From: Aquificaceae bacterium
GTDB taxonomy: Bacteria > Aquificota > Aquificia > Aquificales > Aquificaceae
NCBI GenBank assembly: GCA_026414575.1
Contig: JAOAIS010000006.1
Coordinates: 1-51,650 of the forward strand
Direction: 5' to 3'
Length of the DNA: 51,650 nt
Part shown: positions 12,246 to 15,274 of the stretch, piece after piece
Numbering within the stretch: the first letter of the stretch is position 1
Layout of the letters: every line of letters begins with the position of its first letter
Program-made: the position numbers and the translations under genes
The notes under the pieces: generated by a model
What the model was told of the DNA's origin: nothing
What the model saw: only the letters and a program-made list of their open reading frames with translations
The model's database searches: none

Positions 12246-12929
12246 GTGCAGGCAATCCCCAGGTGGCTAAGAGAGCTAATAATAGTAGTGATAGTAGTGC
12301 TTTTCATAAGAGCCTTTCTTGTTCAGGCTTACAACATACCTTCTGGCTCCATGAAGCCTACCCTCCTTGTAGGTGATTTTATACTGGTTAACAAGCTAGT
12401 CTATAAGCTGTCCGAGCCCCAGAGGGGAGACATAGTGGTTTTTAAGTGGCCTTTAAACCCTCAGATTGACTTTATAAAGAGGATAGTCGGTATGCCTGGG
12501 GATACCCTTGAAATAAGGGGTGAGAGGGTTTATATAAACGGCCAAGAGTTGCCACTGAAGTTTTTGGGCGTTGTGCGGGAAGATGGTATGGCCAAACTAA
12601 TTTACGAAGAGACATTGCCCAATGGTGTAAAACACAAAATTGCCCTTTACGATAGCCCTTTTATCCCCAGAAGGGATGTTTACTATGCCAAAATACCAGA
12701 GGGTCATTACTTGGTACTGGGGGATAACAGAGATAACAGCGAAGACAGCAGATACTGGGGCCTTCTGCCAAGAGAAAACATTGTGGGGAAGGCTTTTGTG
12801 GTTTATTTCTCTGGTGATATTCCGCCCCTGGACTCTACTGACGTGAATGTTTTTACGGGTTTTAAACAGCTTTTTCTTGCCCTTCTTAACCCGCGTTTTG
12901 ATAGGATAGGCAAGCCCATCATATGGTAA
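12246..12929 (+). CDS. lepB: Signal peptidase I
   Basis: NIPSGSMKPTLLVGDFILVNK, DFIKRIVGMPGD, GDNRDNSEDSRYWG. Confidence 0.93.
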   Translation: MQAIPRWLRELIIVVIVVLFIRAFLVQAYNIPSGSMKPTLLVGDFILVNKLVYKLSEPQRGDIVVFKWPLNPQIDFIKRIVGMPGDTLEIRGERVYINGQELPLKFLGVVREDGMAKLIYEETLPNGVKHKIALYDSPFIPRRDVYYAKIPEGHYLVLGDNRDNSEDSRYWGLLPRENIVGKAFVVYFSGDIPPLDSTDVNVFTGFKQLFLALLNPRFDRIGKPIIW

Positions 12930-14646
12930 AGGGTGCGCCGGATAGATAAAAGTGTCTTATAGCTTCCTTGATAAACCTGGCGTTCAAGTTCTTGGAATAC
13001 ATAATGCCTATGATTAGAGATGGTAAAGCCTCTATATCTACGGAGACTTGTATGATTTTACTGTCCTCTATGTATGCAAACTGATAAAGATCTTCCAAAA
13101 AGCTATTCAGCTCCGAGCTCTCTAAGTTTGTCTCCAAAAACTTTAAAAGATTTTCACAGGTTTCCAGTATCAAGTCTTTGTCAAAGCTTTGCATGTCCCT
13201 GTAGACGACCGCTAGTCCTTCAAGCCTTGCCAATAGCCATTTGGTCTCAGCTTCGGAATTCAAGGGATTGCCGAGCATGGGATATAAGGAAAGGACCGTA
13301 TCGTGTTCTATCCTTTTAAGAAAAACTTTTAACGCTTCTTGGGATGGGGCTATTAGGTTTGTGTAAAGGAGCATGTCTTCCACATGGGCGTTTTTGAGAG
13401 GGTTAAATTCTTCTGGAGTGACTAATGAGCTTAGTAGCCTGCCGGTGAATAGACGTCCCGTATCTTCTTCGAGAACCGCAAAACTTCCCGCTTCTGGCAA
13501 GAAAGGCGTTGGTATGAACCTGAGAACATGACCAGAAGCCAGCTTCAATCTGCTTCTCGGAAAGGTTTCTATTGTTCTAATCCTTGCCTGAGGTATGCCC
13601 AAAGCTTTTAATCTCTGAGCTATGTTAATGGAGGTTATCACAAAAGCTTTCTTGTTTCCTTGCAGGAAGCCGAGGATCCCTGAAGACTCATCTATGCCAG
13701 AGCCCATGAGTATGATGCCCTTGACTACATCTACAGGACCTAAGACCTGCTCAAGTTTTGTCCTTATGAGTACATACTCTTGCTCCGTGCCCATGTTTAT
13801 AAGAATGGGAACTTTTATGTTGTCTTTGCCATATATGCGTAGGTAGGCATTTTTATGAAACAGTCCTTTTTTATCCTGAACCCCTACCCAGTAAAAACCA
13901 TCTCCAAGTTCCAATGGCTGATCCAAGTCGGGAACGCTTGCAGCAGTCGGGGATTCCATGGTTGCGATGAGCGCTTCCTCTTGCATGACTTGGGGCATTA
14001 CAGTTTCTGGTTTGTAATCGCTGACAAGTTGCCCAAAGAATTCCCAGTTGTTGGCAAAAACAAGGGTTGGTTCCAGATCTTCTTCCCTGTATGGCTCGAG
14101 CCAAATCTTTAGGTTCTCAGGCATGAGCTTTACAAGCTCTTCTACATTACAGTTGCTACCCTTTAGGACACCATTTTCTATATAAATGGCGCAGGAGTAA
14201 TTGGGACCTTCCATAACCATGGAGGATGTAATACCATGACGCAATAGCTTCAGCAGTGTGCTGGCTGGCCCTATTGTTTCTAAGTGAGCTGGTTCTTGAG
14301 GGCTCTTACTTAGGTTTACTACTTTAGTCAAAAGTTCTATTGGGTTAAAGGGTAGGACCACATAATTAACTTCTCTAAGACCATATTTTCTTATAATTTC
14401 CGCGTCCTCGTGGCTTTCCAAAAAGAATATTGGTGAGGGGTAATATCCCATTTCCAAGATCTTAAGCCAGAAAGCTAAGTCTTCTAAAGACAACAATACT
14501 GCCTCTGGCGAGGCCATTTTCAAAAGCTCAAGAGCCTTCTCCTCGTCCAGAGCTATGAGGAGCTTATGTCCAGTGATGTTAAAAATGTCCGCAAGCAGGG
14601 AAGAGTATTGTCTCTTCTTGTCTAATAGTAGGCAAAGTACTCCCAT
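12919..14646 (-). CDS. Multidomain protein: degenerate receiver + DUF4388-like + metal-ligand-less flavodiiron/ODP-like beta-lactamase-fold domain + helical C-terminus
   Basis: Fold-level motif match by eye: GDGFYWVGVQDKKGLFHKNAY...MGSGIDESSG...FIPTPFLPEAGSFAVLEEDTGRLFTGRLLSS against flavodiiron DGIYWVG...NHxExDHxG...MLHWPDS...ND; REC-like N-terminus without canonical residues. Confidence 0.6.
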   Translation of the reverse strand: MGVLCLLLDKKRQYSSLLADIFNITGHKLLIALDEEKALELLKMASPEAVLLSLEDLAFWLKILEMGYYPSPIFFLESHEDAEIIRKYGLREVNYVVLPFNPIELLTKVVNLSKSPQEPAHLETIGPASTLLKLLRHGITSSMVMEGPNYSCAIYIENGVLKGSNCNVEELVKLMPENLKIWLEPYREEDLEPTLVFANNWEFFGQLVSDYKPETVMPQVMQEEALIATMESPTAASVPDLDQPLELGDGFYWVGVQDKKGLFHKNAYLRIYGKDNIKVPILINMGTEQEYVLIRTKLEQVLGPVDVVKGIILMGSGIDESSGILGFLQGNKKAFVITSINIAQRLKALGIPQARIRTIETFPRSRLKLASGHVLRFIPTPFLPEAGSFAVLEEDTGRLFTGRLLSSLVTPEEFNPLKNAHVEDMLLYTNLIAPSQEALKVFLKRIEHDTVLSLYPMLGNPLNSEAETKWLLARLEGLAVVYRDMQSFDKDLILETCENLLKFLETNLESSELNSFLEDLYQFAYIEDSKIIQVSVDIEALPSLIIGIMYSKNLNARFIKEAIRHFYLSGAPFTI

Positions 14647-14894
14647 CAGTAAAGCTCTCCTTTTTCACATGCTACCTTTATAAGTCCCAGTTGTTCCTTG
14701 AGTATGTTAGCAGACTGAACCAACATGAAAAAGGCGTGTTCCACATTTACAAGGGCTGATTGGAAGGATGGGTTATCCTCAAGGACTCTAAGCTCCCTAA
14801 ACCTTCTATAGTACTCATCTATGTCGGTGCCAAAGTTCAGGAGGAGTTTTATTACAGCCTCCGATAGTTCTAAGGCGTTGCCCCTCGTATCCAT
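14646..14894 (-). CDS. Hypothetical small helical protein
   Basis: Intact 82-aa ORF coupled by overlap to both neighbours in the operon. Confidence 0.6.
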   Translation of the reverse strand: MDTRGNALELSEAVIKLLLNFGTDIDEYYRRFRELRVLEDNPSFQSALVNVEHAFFMLVQSANILKEQLGLIKVACEKGELY

Positions 14895-15274
14895 ATTCTG
14901 CCTACCTCCTCTCCTTCCGCTCTTGGCATATTATACCTGCTAAAGAGTATGGATTCAACCATTTTCAATTCATGGTCTTCAATTTTCTCCATTAGGAGAC
15001 TAATCTCTTCTCCTTGGGATTTAACGCCTATCTCTAAATCTCCCTCCTGATGTTCCTGATAAACATCGCCCCCGCCCGCCATAAAACCAACGCCAACAGA
15101 AAGGGTAGCAAAGTTAAACTCTCTAAGCACCATTTTAGGCTTTTGCAAGCCCTTTTGAATTTTTAGGTAAACACATAGGGCAAGACCAATCCTGATTAAG
15201 CTTTCTGGTGTAAAGGGATAGACCCCAAGTTTACCGCTTAGACGCTTTTCTTTAAATAGCTTCCCCGATGGCAT
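14870..15274 (-). CDS. Hypothetical; resembles N-terminal domain I of GlmM/phosphohexomutase without the catalytic Ser loop
   Basis: SGKLGVYPFTPESLIRIGLALCVYLKIQKG...FATLSVGVGFMAGGGDVY...AEGEEVGRIWI collinear with GlmM domain I; intact ORF overlapping tlyA and the next gene. Confidence 0.55.
   Translation of the reverse strand: MPSGKLFKEKRLSGKLGVYPFTPESLIRIGLALCVYLKIQKGLQKPKMVLREFNFATLSVGVGFMAGGGDVYQEHQEGDLEIGVKSQGEEISLLMEKIEDHELKMVESILFSRYNMPRAEGEEVGRIWIRGATP

Follow-up and report, generated by a model that had tools for sequence, protein, structure and literature searches.

Receivers are phosphorylated on an Asp residue, and ODP domains bind di-iron and sense O2. PqsE of P. aeruginosa, a protein with a metallo-β-lactamase fold, regulates via contact with RhlR. 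In T. denticola, the ODP is a regulator that is genetically coupled to a cytoplasmic chemoreceptor (PMC7666581). Cyanobacterial Flv1 and Flv2 contain a flavodiiron-type metallo-β-lactamase domain that lacks the canonical ligands, yet they are kept as partners of Flv3 and Flv4 (PMC4390876). Receivers lacking any of a set of five residues are known as pseudo-receivers, and their switching has been called unresolved, an open question (PMC12632262). In cyanobacteria, response regulators of the PATAN type have been linked to type IV pili; among them is PixE, an interaction partner of the PilB1 motor (PMC7690835).

The window analyzed here is a stretch of 51,650 nucleotides from an Aquificaceae bacterium. 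On its minus strand, to which all gene features below belong unless stated otherwise, it encodes a 575-aa protein (12919..14646; coding positions 12922-14646, ATG at 14646, stop codon at 12919-12921). On the basis of the ORF, a Pfam match to ODP, its orthologs and an AlphaFold2 (AF2) model built from these orthologs (mean pLDDT 87), five parts can be distinguished: a pseudo-receiver fold (residues 1-116; 14299..14646), a DUF4388/PATAN-like segment (residues 117-212; 14011..14298), a flexible linker (residues ~213-243; 13918..14010), a domain with the ODP/flavodiiron fold without its metal ligands (residues 244-478; 13213..13917) and a C-terminal domain (residues 479-575; 12922..13212). In the model, the receiver spans residues 4-113, a helix plus β-hairpin module residues 119-211, the ODP domain residues 245-476 and the C-terminal domain residues 490-569; the sole disordered stretch, with pLDDT values below 50, is found at residues 211-236.

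Each of the systems introduced above resembles only part of this protein. The ODPs of T. maritima (6qwo/6qrq) and T. denticola (6qnm/6r9n) share their fold and sequence family (PF19583) with residues 244-478, but the protein studied here and its relatives lack all three His and nearly all Asp ligands, embed the domain among several others and have a two-helix hairpin, not a chemoreceptor, as the coupled partner. PqsE and Flv1/Flv2 share the fold and, in the case of Flv1/Flv2, also the absence of the canonical ligands (PMC4390876). However, Flv1 and Flv2 belong among the redox enzymes and also contain flavodoxin and flavin-reductase domains, whereas PqsE is itself catalytically active and has an unrelated domain set. 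Relative to other pseudo-receivers, a second dead domain and the family-specific invariants T25 and H27 are added. The PATAN/DUF4388 response regulators PixE, PixG and LsiR (PF14332) also combine a receiver with a DUF4388-like segment, but in the 575-aa protein this segment is far diverged and contains a Cys pair, the receiver has no phosphorylation site, and ODP-fold and C-terminal domains are present in addition. A pseudo-receiver and a metal-free ODP are each known already; the literature and families searched contained no description of a protein that combines two such dead domains and has a coupled hairpin partner. We consider the protein, with a probability of roughly 55%, to be a non-catalytic multi-domain signalling scaffold that operates with the hairpin protein, uses the Cys pair as input and has a cytoplasmic machine as output.

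The gene is the last of a co-directional run with ribosomal protein genes, rpoA, rplQ and tlyA (the names of the ribosomal genes and rpoA were assigned by inspection). It faces a convergent signal-peptidase-like gene (12246-12929). Its description as an operon tail in an earlier note, made from the DNA sequence of the window, is therefore borne out; the peptides quoted there are all present in the ORF, which had also been placed correctly. No structured RNA was found near the locus in Rfam. Between tlyA and the gene for the hairpin protein lies a 134-aa ORF (14870-15274), which was found in 29 compared loci and has no Pfam match above the cut-off; by eye, its start resembles the N-terminus of a phosphohexomutase.

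The ODP assignment is firm. ODP (PF19583) is the single family that Pfam recognizes in the 575-aa protein (residues 264-456, E 2e-15; score 57.6 bits, cut-off 27.2), and it was also found in 23 of 25 orthologs. A profile of 35 orthologs matched the solved ODPs of T. maritima (1e-19) and T. denticola (1.5e-18), and Foldseek aligned the AF2 model with T. maritima ODP 6qwo_B (target TM 0.81, rmsd 2.6, E 9e-14). The fold matches also included PqsE and the Flv1 core, the latter being among the sequence matches as well. Hence, the ODP layout previously proposed for residues ~220-420 is correct as to the fold, but the domain really extends over residues ~244-478, slightly further toward the C terminus.

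The fate of the metal ligands was assessed by aligning 46 members of the family with five metal-bearing ODPs from the same phylum. At the site of the HQDPD motif of ODP, which provides an H and two D ligands, the window protein reads G315-S-G317-I-D319 (13690..13704). The fourth ligand, a His, is replaced by P384 (13495..13497), the bridging Asp by R403 (13438..13440) and the last His by L458 (13273..13275). Only one of the six ligands, D319, is thus retained, as the earlier note had recognized, and the losses are family-wide: His is found in 0/46, 0/46 and 0/46 members at the three His positions, and Asp in 11/46, 11/46 and 2/46 at the three Asp positions, the D319 column being one with 11/46. 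Instead of His, the P384 column contains Pro in 43/46 and the L458 column Tyr, Phe or Trp in 38/46.

Such conserved replacements look as if the pocket had been rebuilt, and the ODP domain is under purifying selection (see below). Both observations would fit a ligand sensor, in which the emptied pocket, once remodelled, holds a different cofactor or a small molecule, with the pseudo-receiver relaying the signal. We consider this possible but unlikely, since the remaining columns of former ligands are highly variable (G, D, T and S, or E, K and R), no invariant polar residue set surrounds the old site, and the receiver is better conserved than the ODP domain. Relocation of the ligands within the ODP domain was also considered; it was rejected for His, as there is no conserved His column in this domain among the 46 members. 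The only invariant His of the whole protein, H27, is located in the receiver. Together with the low frequency of Asp in the D319 column, this makes it highly improbable that a metal or redox enzyme site still functions by means of shifted ligands, even though the fold is complete, D319 is kept in the window protein, and Flv1 and Flv2 demonstrate that proteins without the canonical ligands can be retained (PMC4390876).

Metal-bearing ODPs are present as separate genes in the same family. In a quick midpoint-rooted tree of ODP domains, these intact ODPs form a group of their own (support 0.96), apart from the scaffold family (0.98), so the loss of the ligands most simply precedes the radiation of the scaffold family. 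In other families of the Aquificota, an intact ODP is fused to a GGDEF diguanylate cyclase domain (L139:3994-5667, L174:2582-4282, L175:2265-3920 and L176:2569-4209), with E-values in the L174 fusion of 6e-60 for ODP and 7e-44 for GGDEF. These fusions are probably oxygen-controlled cyclic-di-GMP enzymes.

By sequence, the receiver is only weakly recognizable: the best PDB match of the window protein is CpxR with an E-value of 0.001, and the ortholog profile matches the CpxR receiver with 1.8e-8. In the AF2 model, the receiver fold of residues 1-116 is clear. The five receiver residues are D9/K10, S53 at the phospho-Asp site, E77 and L98 at the Lys site in the window protein, which departs from the usual set of phospho-acceptor D, DD pair, T and K. 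Within the family, Asp occupies the phospho-Asp column in 3/46 and Lys the Lys column in 15/46 members, whereas D9 is invariant, as are D20, T25, H27 and P99. In view of its fold, the profile match and these column counts, the domain is a pseudo-receiver as defined above (PMC12632262), which substantiates the previous reading of a receiver-like N-terminus devoid of the phospho-Asp and the Lys.

Both domains are maintained, as appears from the pairwise dN/dS values, which are about 0.05-0.19 for the whole genes. For the ODP domain, considering only pairs in which this domain changes, the values are about 0.04-0.17, and the linker is the only part with values that sometimes exceed 0.5. Mean conservation is highest in the pseudo-receiver (0.61), followed by the ODP domain (0.53) and the middle segment (0.47). 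A decaying pseudogene was rejected because of the dN/dS values and the intact frames in almost all genomes. In one locus (L044:5007-6570), a frameshift interrupts the scaffold gene just past the DUF4388-like segment; this split is either real or a sequencing error. Because the losses are common to the whole family and purifying selection acts on it, the protein is not a decaying copy, and there is good support for the proposal of the earlier note that the two domains are catalytically dead.

When the window protein was used as a query, matches were obtained in 60 of the 64 Aquificaceae genomes, those in genera g5 and g6 covering only ODP-like or short stretches. Orthologs are present in nearly every Aquificaceae genome except those of one genus; no full-length orthologs were found in genus g5 or in sister family f2. 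A diverged form is present in another sister family, f3, where a 500-aa relative has the same first part and no recognizable ODP ligands. Across the phylum (136 genomes), there were no further full-length relatives among the matches listed, and a scan of a collection of 84,980 species genomes revealed, outside the Aquificota, only short, mostly receiver-level similarity.

The DUF4388-like nature of the middle segment, also proposed in the earlier note, has modest support. A direct Pfam match to DUF4388 (PF14332) is absent from the window protein, but it was found in one of 25 orthologs (E 1.5e-4), and in hhalign the profile of the segment matched genuine DUF4388 proteins of the same genomes with an E-value of 1e-4, albeit with a probability of only 57%. 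The AF2 model shows a helix and a β hairpin, the strands of which are predicted at residues 151-157 and 160-164. Two Cys residues flank this hairpin: C152 (14191..14193), which is Cys in 46/46 members, and C166 (14149..14151), just past the facing strand and Cys in 44/46. From this topology, the two residues should be close in space. The Cys pair, which is missing in the diverged f3 form, may possibly be structural. The C-terminal domain, modelled as two helices, a β hairpin and two further helices, has no family match; its profile has a weak similarity to that of the middle segment (probability 21%).

Directly upstream of the scaffold gene lies an ORF for an 82-aa protein (14646..14894), the stop codon of which overlaps the start codon of the scaffold gene in the sequence TGATG. 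With simple ORF calling, this gene adjoins the scaffold gene in 55 of 66 loci, the gap between the two being -4, -1 or 0 bases in every case, and the number rises to 60 of 66 once ORFs hidden by overlaps are recovered. As the same genomes from two collections are included, the 66 loci are not independent cases. The six exceptions comprise one genome that was counted twice, two loci at contig ends and two from f3. The doubly counted genome (L041/L083, genus g7) is the only Aquificaceae case of a scaffold gene without the hairpin gene away from contig ends; there, the end of a 679-aa ORF and the scaffold gene overlap directly. The pair has been kept in at least four unrelated genomic contexts, i.e., after tlyA and facing lepB, in another setting in g3, beside glmU-type genes in g2, and before genes for T2SSK and T2SSF in g11.

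With a mean column identity of 76%, the 82-aa protein is far better conserved than its 575-aa partner (44%). It is modelled by AF2 as a two-helix hairpin (pLDDT 92; helices 3-38 and 42-78) and contains an invariant E52-H53. There was no convincing match in Pfam or NCBIfam, and fold searches returned only generic helical hairpins, ROP-like or resembling the DHp domain of histidine kinases, all with E-values >0.05. A di-iron or Hpt role, suggested by E52-H53, was rejected in view of these generic matches and the absence of an ExxH pattern. The gene is more widespread than the pair (95 of 112 genomes of the order), and it also occurs without the scaffold gene, in genus g5 beside a gpmA-like gene and throughout family f2, which argues for a role of its own. 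In f2 (L159-L173), it is mostly followed by a conserved gene for a protein of 125-137 aa, for which no family match was found, and by one for a TlpA-like thioredoxin lipoprotein, a gene set that differs from that of the Aquificaceae. A conserved, apparently unclassified, order-wide protein family is thereby added.

A link of the scaffold to type IV or type II filament machinery is only suggested. The T2SS K- and F-type genes mentioned above are located downstream of the pair in two genomes of a single genus (g11; L037/L039), and filament-type ATPases do not discriminate, since every genome has them, whether or not it encodes the scaffold. A narrower version of the scaffold reading holds that the protein is an assembly factor for such filaments (type IV pili or type II secretion), like the PilB-binding PATAN regulators of cyanobacteria. 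The receiver plus DUF4388/PATAN-like architecture, the operon in L037/L039 and the interaction of PixE with PilB1 (PMC7690835) would agree with it; we regard it as doubtful, given that the T2SS context is confined to one genus and that g5 has the ATPases without the scaffold.

Small GTPases are another lead. In Aquificaceae, L185:2096-3702 and the equivalent loci L186-L193 carry a conserved gene set in which a 230-aa DUF4388 protein is encoded together with a Roadblock/LC7-like protein and a small Ras-like GTPase (the names of the Roadblock and GTPase genes were assigned by inspection). The gene for the 230-aa protein is widespread in the order and has no strong match in genus g5. However, families without the scaffold likewise have genuine DUF4388 genes (in the Aquificaceae, these lie beside the small GTPase gene), and the joint absence of the scaffold and the Roadblock-DUF4388-GTPase genes from g5 is therefore weak evidence.

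According to the scaffold reading, then, the 575-aa protein most likely serves as a platform for docking and not for sensing or catalysis. The receiver and ODP folds, from which the residues for phosphorylation and metal chemistry have disappeared, would have been kept as protein-binding surfaces. The hairpin protein, coupled and conserved as described above and co-translated with the scaffold, probably forms a helical bundle and docks on it. As neither of the old switches can work, the most plausible input is the conserved Cys pair of the DUF4388-like segment, which might act, e.g., as a disulphide redox switch. The output would probably be a cytoplasmic machine of the kind linked to DUF4388/PATAN proteins (e.g., a type IV filament motor or a small GTPase), which is the weakest step of the proposal. 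The binding or regulatory scaffold suggested in the earlier note is retained as the best inference, albeit one drawn indirectly, and the coupled hairpin gene, the Cys pair and the C-terminal domain, all absent from that reading, change the mechanism at issue. In a bolder form, which we consider improbable, the protein would be an enzyme-free redox hub, in which a disulphide-gated DUF4388-like module connects a dead receiver to a dead O2 sensor, the hairpin protein is a dedicated binding partner and, in the Aquificaceae, thiol chemistry has replaced phosphorylation and iron in the control of filaments or a small GTPase.

The family constitutes a natural case in which Asp phosphorylation and di-iron O2 binding have both been lost from one protein that is still under strong selection. 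As its pseudo-receiver comes with a small coupled partner and a fixed Cys pair, and is found in thermophiles that have been cultured and have stable proteins, the question of how pseudo-receivers switch becomes directly testable.
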